Source: a filamentous cyanobacterium CCP5 (GTDB lineage: Bacteria; Cyanobacteriota; Cyanobacteriia; Phormidesmidales; Phormidesmidaceae). Taken from it: DNA of 45,302 nucleotides. The notes beneath the pieces are model-generated. The model did no database searches. It had not been told where the DNA came from and saw nothing but the letters and a program-made list of their open reading frames with translations. The first letter of the stretch is position 1, and every line of letters starts with the position of its first letter. The DNA lies in contig PYEQ01000001.1 in assembly GCA_003017785.1 (NCBI GenBank), positions 1 through 45,302 on the forward strand. The letters are read 5' to 3'. Made by a program: the position numbers and the translations under genes. Of this stretch, positions 18,081-22,909 are shown piece after piece.

Positions 18081-18420
18081 CTAGCGGGTGGGTTCTAATG
18101 GGTCATCAGCTGAGGCTAAAGCAGCTAGAAATGCTTCCGCCTCAGCTTCACAGTGTTCTATGAGCTCTAGATCCATGCAGCAGTAGCGATCAGGAATGCC
18201 CATCACTTCGAGTCGCTTGTGGGTCAGCAATTCTCGAAACTCAGCCTGCAAGCGCTTTTGGTGCATTGTCTCCATGACGAAGACAATGTCGGCCCAATCC
18301 ATATCGGTTGCCGTCACCTTGCGTCTAGCCCTAGAACCTGTCCCCGCAGAGCGGCCGCTGAACGCCGGAAATTTGCGTCAGCCAGCTTCTCCCGTGGGGC
18401 TTCTCCGCTGATACTGAAAG
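18081..18420 (-). pseudogene. Degenerate low-molecular-weight protein tyrosine phosphatase-like gene
   Basis: The last 78 codons (18081-18317) match the C-terminal half of small phosphatases of the LMW-PTP type: VTATDMDWADIVFVME, then IPDRYCCMDLELIE. The same frame continues upstream as SAGTGSRARRKV and FPAFSGR, then hits TGA at 18378-18380. Beyond that it still shows QRRSPTGE, the expected P-loop tail (R-S-P-T-x-E). The catalytic Cys of the C-X5-R loop is not present in frame. The gene is therefore dead, with one nonsense codon and loss of its N-terminus. Confidence 0.65.
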
Positions 18421-18453: not shown

Positions 18454-18528
18454 CTTTGTCGTTTGACGAAATCTAAACCAAACGACAAAGACTAGAATAG
18501 TCGTGTCAGATCCAAGCTACCAAACGAC
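18454..18528 (+). promoter_or_regulatory. Operator-like dyad before the 103-aa gene
   Basis: The perfect 11-bp arms CTTTGTCGTTT (18454-18464) and AAACGACAAAG (18480-18490) are separated by 15 bp. A further half-copy, AAACGAC, abuts the ATG (18522-18528). A TAGAAT that could be a -10 lies at 18493-18498. Three copies of the same half-site before a small gene suggest binding by a regulator, perhaps the gene's own product; that is inference. Confidence 0.5.
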
Positions 18529-18840
18529 ATGAATGCTCTCCAGCAAGCCCTCAACGATCTGCAGGCCCACCGCCAGCGCATCGAAGCCAGTGGAGCGATC
18601 GCCCCTGCGGGAATCTGGATCGAGGTGTATCGCCCCGGAGGCCGCGAGGTGGACTATGCCCGGCTGAAAGCCGAAAAGGCGCTGTGGGGTAAGTCTCGCA
18701 GCAAAGGGTTACAGCGGGTCGGCTCAGCTGAGCATCGAGACTGGCAACAGCGCATTCAGCGGCGGAATGCCTTGCTTGAAATCGAACGGCGATCCCTGGC
18801 CATTCAGGCCATGCTCGATTCACCCATCTGGGAGCCGTGA
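18529..18840 (+). CDS. Small hypothetical protein
   Basis: This 103-aa basic, mostly helical protein is not recognised. It starts MNALQQALNDLQAHRQRIEASG, followed by APAGIWIEVYRPGG and a coiled-coil-like C-terminal half rich in Arg, Gln and Glu. The ATG at 18529 follows an operator-like dyad, and no good ribosome site is visible. Its last 37 bp overlap the 3' end of the convergent primase gene. It could belong to the plasmid-like replicon next to it. Confidence 0.55.
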   Translation: MNALQQALNDLQAHRQRIEASGAIAPAGIWIEVYRPGGREVDYARLKAEKALWGKSRSKGLQRVGSAEHRDWQQRIQRRNALLEIERRSLAIQAMLDSPIWEP

Positions 18841-20597
18841 GCGAGGGCGGTTTCAGACAGTTGATTCAAGCAGGGACCCTGATCTTGAACCCTCATCAAC
18901 GACTGACACTGGATGACCAAAGGCGTTAGTTGCGGATAGAGATGGCTCCAGTCCATGAAATTTTCTGGCAGCAGGTGGTTCAAGGGAATATCAGCTTGAC
19001 ACAAGCTCCACTTCAATCCCTCACCGATCAGAATGGGATCCTGCGATCGCAGGTATTCTGCCATCTGCTTAGCCTGATTTTGGATAGATTGCCTCGCTTT
19101 TGAATGGGAACGGGTCTCCTTTTGCGACCTCGAAGCACTCTTTTGCTGAGCCTGTCGCTCCTTGAGCGCCCCTAACAGCCCTCGCCACATCGGCGGCGGC
19201 CCTTCATTACGAACCCCCCCCTGATCAGCTACGTTCTCAGCACAGCTCAAAGCGTTATCACACAAAGCATTACGACCGTCTACTGGTAATAAGCTTGTAG
19301 GGCGAGAAGCGGTCGCTGGCGAAGCCGTTGCGGACGCTTCCTCCCTAATTGAAGATTGGGGGGTCTGGGGGGCTTTCCACAGGTCAGGATGCCACAGAGC
19401 TTTGTACTTGTAGAGAGTGCCGCCACCGATGCCATAGCTAATCAATTTTTGAAAACGAGCCGTGGCTGTTTCTGGAAACTGTCCACATCTCAGTAGGTCA
19501 GCCACGACTGATTTGATCTTCTCTTGAGCAGTTTGTGCTCTCTGCTGGTTCCAGGTCTTCTCAACAACGGTATTGTTTTCCAGGTCCTTTTTAGCTTTGT
19601 ACTTACCTTGTTGAGTTCCGTAGGGAAAGTAGTGGCTGTTCTCGACACATCTAGCCCATTCAGCTGCTCGCTGATGAATTTCATACTGATGCCCACACCA
19701 TTCTCGGTAGCCAGGTAGTGAGGTGGCTGTGGCAACAATTTCCGCTACCAAAGTATCCCCGCTTAACGGCATGCCTCCGTGAATAACGTGGTGAAAGACA
19801 TAGGCCCGCATGGTGATGCGGCCTAGTAGATGGTTGGTCTGGCCTTTACCCGTCCAGCCCAGTTCAATTTCAGCATTTAAGTCATTAAGAAACTTATCTG
19901 CCCGATGGGAAACCCGATGGCGCTGACGGCGGCATTGCTGGAGGATCTGTTCAAGGACAGCGGTATCCACGCTGTTGCGCCGTCGGCACCACTGCCATTG
20001 CTGTACAAAAGCTGGCTGACTGCTATTAATAGGCTCTAGCTGGTCATTGAGGAGATATGAACCGGCTTGCAGGGGGAGCCGATGAGCATTGAACAGGTTT
20101 GGAGTACCCTCCACAACGTAGAGTTTACTGTTTGGAAAGACCTCCAGCTGACCCGGCTGACATTTGAATCCCTGATTCTCCAATAACGTCGTAACAGCTT
20201 TTGAAAGCTGCCAGGAATTCTGGGCTATCTCAAAAGGAAAATATAGATGTAGCCCCTGCGAGTAGCTAGAAGTGCAAACTACGTAGCTTACTAAGCCCAA
20301 GGGCTCAAGTGCTGCTACCAGGCGGGAAATCGCAAGCGGATCATGTTGGGGGTGATATGTGCTGTCAGCGTCAATGTCCAGGAGACAATAGCTAGTCTGA
20401 CTGTCAAAACGCACCCCATACAGATAAGCCCCCTGCTGAATCAGGCGATCACTTAGCGGATGTCGAGACTCTGTTTGCCACTTAGGCTTTTCATCAGGAG
20501 CTGGATGAGGTGCCCAAATATAGTCATAGCGATGGGGCCACAGACTTAAAAAAGGATGATCATGTTCAACAACCCATTGAGGCTTCGATAAAATCAC
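18804..20597 (-). CDS. AEP-type primase / plasmid replication protein
   Basis: In this 597-aa protein the N-terminal ~250 residues resemble the archaeo-eukaryotic primase fold used by plasmid and phage replication proteins. They contain motif I YCLLDIDAD (near 90), motif II SQGLHLYFPF (near 135) and motif III QLEVFPNSKLY (near 165). The middle (about 230-400) has basic helices, and QKLISYGIGGGTLYKYKALWHP looks like a HTH-like DNA-binding segment. The tail is low-complexity and basic. No Walker A is present, so no helicase domain is fused. The start is a GTG at 20597 and the ribosome site is poor. The gene lies downstream of the iterons and the Rep-like gene on the same strand, which supports a replicon function. 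The subfamily is uncertain. Confidence 0.65.
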   Translation of the reverse strand: MILSKPQWVVEHDHPFLSLWPHRYDYIWAPHPAPDEKPKWQTESRHPLSDRLIQQGAYLYGVRFDSQTSYCLLDIDADSTYHPQHDPLAISRLVAALEPLGLVSYVVCTSSYSQGLHLYFPFEIAQNSWQLSKAVTTLLENQGFKCQPGQLEVFPNSKLYVVEGTPNLFNAHRLPLQAGSYLLNDQLEPINSSQPAFVQQWQWCRRRNSVDTAVLEQILQQCRRQRHRVSHRADKFLNDLNAEIELGWTGKGQTNHLLGRITMRAYVFHHVIHGGMPLSGDTLVAEIVATATSLPGYREWCGHQYEIHQRAAEWARCVENSHYFPYGTQQGKYKAKKDLENNTVVEKTWNQQRAQTAQEKIKSVVADLLRCGQFPETATARFQKLISYGIGGGTLYKYKALWHPDLWKAPQTPQSSIREEASATASPATASRPTSLLPVDGRNALCDNALSCAENVADQGGVRNEGPPPMWRGLLGALKERQAQQKSASRSQKETRSHSKARQSIQNQAKQMAEYLRSQDPILIGEGLKWSLCQADIPLNHLLPENFMDWSHLYPQLTPLVIQCQSLMRVQDQGPCLNQLSETALAHGSQMGESSMA

Positions 20598-20687
20598 AAC
20601 TCCAAGTCCTGGATCGTAGTACGAATACCGCAGGACAGGAAATAGTAATTCTCTAGCCGATTAGAAAGCAAAACTCCAGGCTTTGCC

Positions 20688-20756
20688 AAACATTGCACCA
20701 ACAATGTTTGTAATGTTTGTGAAGTCTGATCACACTGCAAATTTAAATATTTGCAG
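20688..20756. repeat. AT-rich cluster of small inverted and direct repeats in the replicon
   Basis: Three structures lie together between the primase gene and the iterons. They are the inverted arms AAACATTG (20688-20695) and CAATGTTT (20702-20709), a tandem AATGTTTGT pair (20703-20720), and the inverted arms CTGCAAAT (20735-20742) and ATTTGCAG (20749-20756), followed by TTTTT. The AT-richness suits a melting region or a promoter/operator of the primase gene. Confidence 0.4.
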
Positions 20757-20882
20757 TTTTTCTGATTGGCTTACTAAAATAGGCACAGAAAACTGAGGAT
20801 TCGCCAGCACCTGCTCGCCAAAGCACCTTTGCCGGTAATCCAAGATGTATGTCCCACGACGTGGATATGCAGTTTCTCTGAG

Positions 20883-20912
20883 ACCCCTTAGCTGCACCAA
20901 CAGCTGAGGGGT
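20883..20912. terminator. Stem-loop between iterons and primase
   Basis: ACCCCTTAGCTG (20883-20894) and CAGCTGAGGGGT (20901-20912) pair over 12 bp with one G-T wobble and a 6-nt loop. The plus-strand tail, TTGTCTCT, is only partly T-rich, so terminator activity is uncertain. Confidence 0.45.
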
Positions 20913-20985
20913 TTGTCTCTGAAAGTTAGGTAATGGGGTAATCCTCCCTGCGACGGTGACATTCCACCTCTTATACCAAAGGCTT

Positions 20986-21518
20986 TGATTACATCAGAAC
21001 GCTTGCACCAATGGCGTTGTAATCACTTTCCCAGCTATCAGCACATGTTTCCTTCGATAAAGACCCAAGATCGGCAATAGATACCCCTGTTGGGGGTGGG
21101 GTTCTAGAGAAAATAGGGATAGGGGTCTAGTTGCGATCGAGGATGGGGGTTTAGAACATCGATGTAATCATATTTCCTGACTTTGGCGCAGATGTAATCA
21201 AGGAATGAGCTCTATATACACCGTCTCTACGGCTGCTAGAGCCGTTAATTGCCACTATATGTAGAGAAGCTAGATTCGCCGTTTCAGGGGTGGGGGTCTA
21301 TAGAGTGTTGTAATCAGGTACGGGGGTCTAGCGATCGGTGTAATCAAAACTCATTTTGTGATCCTCCATAACGCCCATAATGTCGTGGCTACTTTGGGTA
21401 TGGGGGTCTAGTTGAGCCTGTAATCAGATCACAAGTTTCCTGACAGTGTAATCACGCTTGCCTTTCAGGCAGGGGGCTCTAGTTATCGTGTAATCAGAGA
21501 TACCCCTACATGTAATCA
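20986..21518. repeat. Iteron array, probable plasmid-type origin of replication
   Basis: TGTAATCA occurs ten times: at 21018, 21163, 21193, 21309, 21339, 21419, 21447, 21489 and 21511 on the plus strand and once inverted at 20986. Five copies are the right half of a composite unit, GGGGGTCTAG-N6-8-TGTAATCA: 21145-21170 (26 bp) and 21292-21316, 21322-21346, 21402-21426 and 21472-21496 (25 bp each). Extra left halves occur at 21098 and 21121. Unit length and conservation match iterons bound by plasmid Rep proteins. The last copy overlaps the 3' end of the Rep-like gene. The rest of 20598-20985 contains only the small repeats listed separately. Confidence 0.75.
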
Positions 21519-22909
21519 AAGACCCGACGGAGAATCAGTTCGTTTTCTTTAGTGATGGAGCGACTTCCGTTCTCCATCATTGAGATCAGCCCCTGACTGA
21601 TCCCAGTGAGGCTCGCAAGATGCCGCTGACTCCATTTGCGCTCTGAGCGAATGGTCTTGATCTCAGCCGCTGTTAAAGTAACGTCTTCCTCTAGAGGTTC
21701 ATCGGGTGGTGCCTCCAAAGCCTGGGAAGCCGTCTCACCGTCTCCTGGGCTCAGGGGTTGATTGATCCAGCTATCTGGCGGAGTAATCCAAATATGGGCA
21801 GCGAGTAATTTTTCGAAGAACCCACGGGGCCGGCGAGAATCTTCCCGACCAAAACCTACCGGCTGAATTTCAGGCGGGTAGGTATCTGGAGCAAAATGGA
21901 GTCGCCAGCCTCGATCATGGAGCGTAAACAGGTCTTCATCCCAAGTGTTGGCTAGTTTCTTGCGCAGCTGGAGGTCTTCCCTGGCCAATTCAACTTTTTC
22001 TTGACCGTACGCAACCTCCATCAACGTCAGCACGCTAAGCGGATGCTGCTTATTGATTTGCGCTTTAAACAGCAGCCACACCATAAGCCTGGCAGCGCCT
22101 TCTCGATGCTGCCAAATGCTCATAACGCTCTCTAGCAAAGACTTTGATAGCGTTGCCTGCTGAGAAAGCGCCTGATCCTGCCCGCCATCCTCATTGATAA
22201 AGTACTTCGCCCATAAACCGGCTTTGAGAATGAAAGAGATACCGGCGATCTCCTTGTTGCCAAAGATGTCCTGCTGATAGTGGTACCGGGTACCCAGAAT
22301 GTGCCAGAGACGACCTTCTTCTACCGTGAAGCCTTTACGCCTGCCACGGCTGGGCCAGGTAATGTAAGTCGTGATTTTACAGGGCTGCTTAGCAATCTCT
22401 TCAATTAAGGCCAGTTTCTCTTTCCGTGACTTATCTGTGCGCTTTTGAAGACCAAGGTAAGCTTCGATTTGGCGATCGTCGATAACGATTTCCTCTTCCC
22501 ACGGACGATCTACCTGAGTCGCGTGAGCGGCATAAATCAAATGCATGCAGGCGGCGCGAATGTCAAAGTTATCAATGACTGCCAGCGCTGCGGCTCCAGC
22601 GAGCGTCGCTGGATGTTCATCTTCTGTGTTATCAGCAACCCAAAAATAAATGGCCCCCTGTCCGTCATCTACGTCGCGGGTGTAGCAGAGCTTCCCATCG
22701 GGATCCATAACCCAGGGAAGATTCTTCCGTTGAGTCAGGATATTGCTCGCTTCCCATAGCGGGAGTGACGATGACACAGGAGCCGTAGAACCATCTACAA
22801 ACAGTGCAGGGCTCGTGCGAGGACGATCCTTGCCTGGTTGTCCACTGCCTCCCTTAGACGGTTGGGATGAAGGCGTGGGAGAAGATTTACTAGTCGGCGT
22901 CTCTGCCAT
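21506..22909 (-). CDS. Putative Rep-like protein with C-terminal XRE helix-turn-helix
   Basis: This protein of about 467 aa opens with a Ser/Pro/Gly-rich disordered tail (residues 1-45). The central region (about 130-340) is alpha/beta with winged-helix-like character (IVIDDRQIEAYLGLQKRTDKSRKEKLALIEEI; ARLMVWLLFKAQ). The C-terminus is a clear Cro/C1-type HTH (AAEIKTIRSERKWSQRHL, then GISQGLISMMENG). It is not matched confidently to a named Rep family. The initiator role is inferred from the iterons that start inside its 3' end and from the primase gene beyond. The ATG at 22909 is preferred to a TTG two codons upstream; no clear ribosome site is seen. Confidence 0.6.
   Translation of the reverse strand: MAETPTSKSSPTPSSQPSKGGSGQPGKDRPRTSPALFVDGSTAPVSSSLPLWEASNILTQRKNLPWVMDPDGKLCYTRDVDDGQGAIYFWVADNTEDEHPATLAGAAALAVIDNFDIRAACMHLIYAAHATQVDRPWEEEIVIDDRQIEAYLGLQKRTDKSRKEKLALIEEIAKQPCKITTYITWPSRGRRKGFTVEEGRLWHILGTRYHYQQDIFGNKEIAGISFILKAGLWAKYFINEDGGQDQALSQQATLSKSLLESVMSIWQHREGAARLMVWLLFKAQINKQHPLSVLTLMEVAYGQEKVELAREDLQLRKKLANTWDEDLFTLHDRGWRLHFAPDTYPPEIQPVGFGREDSRRPRGFFEKLLAAHIWITPPDSWINQPLSPGDGETASQALEAPPDEPLEEDVTLTAAEIKTIRSERKWSQRHLASLTGISQGLISMMENGSRSITKENELILRRVFDYM

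Follow-up and report, generated by a model that had tools for sequence, protein, structure and literature searches.

A cassette at positions 18,529 to 22,909 of a 45,302-bp contig of the filamentous cyanobacterium CCP5, which was analysed whole and is called the window here, combines a gene for an AEP-type primase or primase-polymerase (AEP), an array of bipartite repeats and a gene for a protein with a C-terminal helix-turn-helix (HTH) domain of the XRE type. The best reading of this cassette is that it is the core of a plasmid-type replicon, of a family that we did not find described, which now lies in a chromosomal context. Judged by its sequence, the HTH protein is a homologue of CnfR/PatB over the full length of that protein minus the ferredoxin domain. 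CnfR/PatB is the master switch of cyanobacterial nitrogen fixation, an oxygen-responsive activator of nif genes. For the protein in the window we favour, at a probability of roughly one in two, a role as the array-binding, origin-recognising partner of the AEP replicase.

Both genes lie on the minus strand and, as the original prediction had it, the region between them is marked by ten copies of a repeat (box A), five of which are composite with a CTAGA/CTAAA-CCCC box (box B) at 3-9 bp (Table 1). The window contains 11 copies of the box A sequence TGTAATCA, where 0.86 would be expected, and none of 100 shuffles reached this count. Ten of these copies fall in the array, nine in one orientation and one inverted, and the first overlaps the 3' end of the HTH gene. 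Within the gap itself the commonest 8-mer is present nine times; in shuffled sequence the maximum averaged 2.1, and none of 200 shuffles reached nine. The strict composite TGATTACA-N3-9-CTAGA has three matches in the 5.29-Mb assembly, all of them in the window array, while the reversed control pattern has two. Behind one box A (21163-21170) stand three copies of box B, at 21145-21155, 21122-21131 and 21098-21108 with a spacing of 23-24 bp, a structure missed in the original prediction; this layout recurs in plasmid gaps and in the control regions of nifB.

Table 1. Features of the cassette and its immediate surroundings in the window.
Feature	Position	Strand	Remark
AEP-type primase/primase-polymerase gene, 597 aa	18804..20597	-	Open frame; motifs DID (74-76), GLHLYF (115-120), HRLPLQ (172-177)
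Intergenic repeat array, 908 bp	20598..21505	.	Between HTH and AEP genes; putative origin or replication-control region
Ten box A (TGTAATCA/TGATTACA)	20986..21518		21511-21518, 21489-21496, 21447-21454, 21419-21426, 21339-21346, 21309-21316, 21193-21200, 21163-21170, 21018-21025, 20986-20993 (inverted)
Composite iteron, box A + box B ACTAGAGCCCCC	21472..21496	-	
Composite iteron, box A + box B ACTAGACCCCC	21402..21426	-	
Composite iteron, box A + CTAGACCCCC	21322..21346	-	Box A 21339-21346; genome-wide match 21327-21346; box B end read from sequence
Composite iteron, box A + TCTATAGACCCC	21293..21316	-	
Box A (21163-21170) then three box B	21098..21170	-	Includes fifth composite, 21145-21170
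HTH gene, 469 aa	21506..22915	-	Open frame; likely start ATG at 22909, the boundary originally predicted; CnfR/PatB family without N-terminal ferredoxin domain
Small open reading frame	18529-18840	opposite to cassette	At start of the 18,529-22,909 span; not evidently part of cassette
Coiled-coil open reading frame, 195 aa	23218..23805	+	Adjoins HTH gene

The original prediction took the cassette for a plasmid-type replication module and proposed cyanobacterial plasmids as the place to look for the same pairing. Searches of PLSDB by tblastn matched the HTH protein to 42 records and the AEP protein to 66, with cyanobacteria as the listed organisms, and genuine circular plasmids carry the gene pair along with the same bipartite repeats. 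An absence of homologues from plasmids, which would have spoken against the original prediction, is thereby contradicted. We read 19 plasmid loci around HTH-family genes. One of these (L006, from Pseudanabaena) encodes a ferredoxin-bearing protein and has no replicase beside it. All 18 ferredoxin-less loci (L003-L005, L007, L009, L083-L095) have the same order of HTH gene, gap of 0.35-1.5 kb and large gene on the same strand. Where it could be identified, this large gene encodes an AEP homologue, Prim-Pol/PriCT-2, DUF3854/CyRepA1 or DUF3987; those of L083 and L084 matched no replication family. Within the window clade, plasmids from NIES-3755, PCC 7428 and PCC 7502 combine close HTH homologues and window-like boxes, TGATTACA or TATTACAA plus CTAGAACCCC, with differing replicases (AEP on AP017311, DUF3987 on NC_020051 and CyRepA1 on NC_019691). 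As the boxes are of one kind despite three different replicases, the array goes with the HTH protein and not with the replicase. On plasmid3 of NIES-3755 the cassette lies near parAB, and no other Rep is annotated.

On most of the more distant plasmids the gap contains repeats in phase, as a rule three in tandem with a period of exactly 22 bp, as judged by a repeat search and a motif-free periodicity scan. A spacing of 22 bp was best in L007, L083-L087, L089-L091, L093-L095 and L059 and tied in L009 and L092, and 23 bp was best in L004, L058, L060 and L061; several loci of the window clade are among those at 23 bp. No clear 22-bp triplet was seen in L005 and L088.

The original prediction could name no Rep family for the HTH protein, and that view gives way to membership of the CnfR/PatB family, minus the ferredoxin part, on the evidence of full-length homology and a tree. 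Its C-terminal XRE HTH was correctly called: PF01381 matches residues 419-458 (29.4 bits against a cut-off of 23), and the PF01381 and PF12844 matches together span residues 419-460. Whole-length searches of Pfam, NCBIfam and PHROGs returned the HTH only, with no Pfam or NCBIfam family covering the central domain and no match to Rep_3, RepA or any other curated initiator model in these two collections. A PDB sequence search with the family returned XRE domains only, as did Foldseek among the matches listed for a model of mean pLDDT 50, in which the central fold had no match; no relative was found in phage and viral collections. The next tier of homologues, at 35-40% identity over residues 26-467 (about 440 residues), consists of proteins about 540 aa long that begin with a two-cluster ferredoxin domain, matched by ferredoxin models, and that are encoded in nif clusters beside nifB, nifV, nifE, nifX and nifS. 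This is the architecture described for CnfR/PatB (PMC8510180). ChlR was also considered as an identity for these homologues and was rejected, ChlR being a MarR-type protein.

The 4Fe-4S ferredoxin-like domain is absent from the window protein and its 16-member clade and is present in 28 sequences, which form a single clade (support 100/100). In the same tree, which is midpoint-rooted and leaves out six long branches, the window clade has support of 100/99 and the two clades group with each other at 96/92; under that root the other plasmid proteins fall outside them. Two chromosomal, long-branched proteins without ferredoxin (L036, L037) take the base of the ferredoxin clade in the full-set tree. 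The window protein matches CnfR/PatB along the central domain and up to and including the C-terminal XRE HTH; it differs in having no N-terminal 2x[4Fe-4S] ferredoxin, and its gene lies beside a replicase gene and chromosomal genes rather than in a nif cluster. Among other cnfR-type genes, two lie a few kb apart in each of several genomes (L075, L076, L079, L103), and the ferredoxin-bearing gene of the Pseudanabaena plasmid ABRG53d (L006 5340-6974) lies near psbA and an annotated bchE, with no nif gene annotated in the stretch read.

The kinship probably extends to the DNA target. Three conserved cis-elements lie 300-600 bp upstream of the nifB start and are thought to be CnfR sites (PMC8510180). 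We found nifB in nine fetched cnfR-bearing loci, and upstream of it TGAGTACA boxes followed by three AATACC-N-GTACCC repeats at 22 bp, in 13 arrays from seven genomes (L077, L080, L081, L097, L099, L102, L105 and L107, often as two divergent copies). A second TGAGTAC/TGAGTGC box stands 114-117 bp from the first in all 13 nif pairs found, and TATAA follows 69-72 bp past this second box in 13 of 13 elements. The plasmid elements share this layout of a box A, repeats phased at 22 bp and, roughly 115 bp on, another box A: in eight plasmid gaps a pair of box A copies 114-115 bp apart brackets three repeats. These eight represent six independent lineages, L085, L086 and L093 being near-identical, and the pairs were searched for at 108-122 bp on plasmids and 110-120 bp at nif, so that the agreement counts only within that range. 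Unlike the nif elements, none of the eight has TATAA within 120 bp, and none has it 70 bp past the second box. The window array, spaced at 23-24 bp, fails the 22-bp test with the nif weight matrix, and the window clade did not show the 115-bp geometry as such.

A DNA profile built from the eight plasmid elements and run over the other fetched loci placed HTH-gene gaps at the top (L090, L009, L088, L038, L007, L095) and then reached nif elements (L082, E = 0.003; L081, E = 0.02), at positions where these had been found independently. With the nif-trained profile, plasmid arrays were not significant (best E = 2), several weak matches lying inside HTH gaps. Together these comparisons suggest that CnfR and its cis-element probably share ancestry with the plasmid replicons. 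A further proposal, to which we give slightly less than even odds, is that CnfR/PatB and the nifB element arose from a plasmid initiator with its array of iterons through fusion to a ferredoxin and the gain of a -10 box at a fixed distance from the former origin, in which case the window cassette would belong to a non-redox plasmid sister group. The direction, from plasmid to nif, is one that we infer, the root of the tree being its midpoint. We found no literature naming both CnfR and plasmid replication, and no published report of a link between CnfR and a replicon.

The second gene of the pair resembles the AEP/primase-polymerase superfamily in its DxD, GxHxY and R-containing motifs, the columns of which are invariant in four homologues. 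The first 14 Foldseek PDB matches to its model are AEP-type prim-pol, RepB' primase or LigD polymerase domains, although these are weak (E 1.4e-3) and come from a model of low confidence (mean pLDDT 55). Unlike the superfamily it has no Pfam match and has a long C-terminal region to which nothing is assigned. Searches of Pfam, NCBIfam and PHROGs gave nothing convincing, including no DUF3854 or helicase match, and a PDB sequence search gave no credible match.

These data allow us to propose a mechanism. The HTH protein, CnfR/PatB-like and free of an Fe-S cluster, would bind the A and B boxes, with the XRE domain plausibly contacting box A and the central domain the phased B boxes. This complex would mark and open an origin in the AT-rich stretch before the replicase gene, and the AEP protein would then prime or replicate at the opened origin. 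In its favour count the gene order of the 18 plasmid loci, the repeats in their gaps and the cassette on plasmid3 of NIES-3755. An origin-recognition unit also fits the swapping of the DNA-binding partner together with its array, seen when the window-clade plasmids are set against the AEPs of G022:C43 and G007:C4.

The strongest competitor, which we hold to be less likely, would confine the HTH protein to transcriptional control of the replicase gene, in the manner of CnfR at nifB: it would activate (or repress) that gene, the boxes would be regulatory sites, and the origin would lie elsewhere or be supplied by the AEP protein alone. The homology to CnfR is full-length, the element architecture is common to the nifB control regions, and the array lies directly upstream of the replicase gene; the proven activator role of CnfR and the existence of a plasmid with an AEP relative and no HTH gene also speak for it. 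Because of that common layout the window repeats may serve activation, in addition to or in place of a function as origin iterons. On this and other points the original interpretation is supported only in part. A pure promoter role is nevertheless argued against by the absence, in all eight plasmid elements compared, of the TATAA fixed in 13 of 13 nif elements, and the exchange of the DNA-binding partner along with its array is what would be expected of an origin-recognition unit.

Several observations weigh against the replicon interpretation. The only relatives studied by experiment, the CnfR proteins, are proven transcription activators (PMC8510180). Some gaps of the TGATTACA clade do contain TATAA, so that the TATAA argument may not carry over to the window. 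Several of the plasmid replicase labels are based on domain matches, annotation or size, and confidence in the AEP and HTH models is low. AP018206, a 13.17-kb circular plasmid of Leptolyngbya boryana, carries ParAB, transposases and an AEP relative, its sole candidate for replication among the seven genes annotated, but no HTH-family gene; pSYSA replicates with CyRepA1 (PMC10899382), yet no Synechocystis plasmid is among the named HTH-family matches. On account of these two plasmids the HTH protein is dispensable in some settings, and on account of the first it may be the AEP rather than the HTH protein that is indispensable as Rep.

The location of the cassette was judged from its flanks. Both the left block (GDPD, T2SSE, PhoX) and the right block (GGDEF/EAL, STAS, SpoIIE, histidine kinase, CAR) are syntenic with chromosome-sized contigs in relatives, and for this reason the cassette is probably embedded in the chromosome, in agreement with the original prediction. 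A related cassette lies on a 7.69-Mb scaffold of Adonisia turfae CCMR0081, and that of a close relative, Leptolyngbya sp. PCC 6406, on a 196-kb contig. Of the two origins first offered, an integrated plasmid or an integrative element, a captured or integrated plasmid fragment suits the cassette better. The integrative element is unsupported because there is no integrase among the scanned open reading frames of the contig and no par gene beside the cassette; mobility genes were likewise not seen there, no tRNA was found, and the two flanks searched share no 11-mer that might mark an attachment site.

We think it improbable that the cassette in the window is an inactive remnant of an integrated plasmid, or that it has been recruited to control a chromosomal function. 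The chromosome-like flanks, the missing par and mobility genes and an apparently decayed phosphatase gene to the left would suit such a relic, but neither gene is disrupted and the boxes are well preserved, none of the ten box A copies having a mismatch. The chromosomal copy may still be active. Least credible of all is a contig that is part of a large plasmid or an assembly chimera, which would leave the cassette real and its chromosomal placement wrong: the window is the whole of one contig in an assembly of 906 contigs with 5.7% contamination, and its two blocks match regions 4.8 Mb apart in one relative (G032), but both blocks are found on chromosome-sized contigs of relatives (8.16 and 7.87 Mb) and the Adonisia turfae scaffold has the cassette too.

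Several neighbouring features were recorded. Just left of the cassette, 18094-18400 reads by eye as a low-molecular-weight phosphatase gene decayed by a frame shift and a stop, and a 12-bp perfect inverted repeat, CTTTGTCGTTTG/CAAACGACAAAG, occupies 18454-18490 upstream of the small open reading frame. The coiled-coil frame on the other side was possibly carried along with the cassette, to judge from an 82% identical paralogue that adjoins a second AEP gene on contig C906 of the same genome (G000), where further AEP genes are found. Another contig of this genome (G000:C593; L040 8966-11077) has a second HTH-family gene of 703 aa followed by TGAGACAA-type repeats, with an AEP fragment at its other end; its circularity was not shown. 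In Adonisia turfae most of a patchwork of about 13 kb that includes the cassette (L057; G033:C11:428-441 kb) matches parts of a 345-kb G002 contig at 83-94% identity, which reflects either plasmid-chromosome exchange or a scaffolding error.

AEP genes also occur in other settings. Those on G022:C43 and G007:C4 are accompanied by other bipartite repeat arrays and by a divergent partner of about 370 aa, of no known family, with relatives on six cyanobacterial plasmids; this arrangement is probably a second AEP replicon type. The arrays (L065 6150-7158 and L066 7700-8720, respectively) lie between the AEP and the divergent gene and are dense and bipartite, with GCCTATCA... and CCTATAAC...GGCGTAT. 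The plasmid pSYSG of Synechocystis 6803 (L008) carries a relative of the window AEP. The Rep of pSYSG is unknown, like those of other large plasmids (PMC10899382), and this relative is a candidate for it.

Among known systems, the described cyanobacterial Reps CyRepA1, CyRepA2, CyRepX1 and CyRepX2 (PMC10899382) likewise belong to plasmid replicons, and CyRepA1-type genes (DUF3854) are downstream partners of HTH-family genes on plasmids of PCC 7502 and NIES-3709. The window replicase differs from CyRepA1 in being a stand-alone AEP, and the description of the CyRep proteins makes no mention of iterons, helix-turn-helix partners or primases (PMC10899382). Iteron initiators (RepE/pi/RepA, Rep_3) are similar in their 22-24 bp repeats clustered by replication genes and in the DNA-binding protein encoded alongside. 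In contrast to these, it is the replicase gene and not the HTH gene that has the window repeats upstream, the DNA-binding protein and the replicase are two separate proteins, and Rep_3 of Pfam is not matched.

Most large cyanobacterial plasmids are without an identified Rep. The replicon family outlined here, an HTH protein with a phased array and an interchangeable primase, is defined across many genera, is testable and would be useful for vectors. It also suggests where the oxygen-responsive nif activator may have come from in evolution and predicts how its DNA target is built, so that recognition and activation of nif promoters by CnfR may become approachable through a simpler homologue without the Fe-S cluster.

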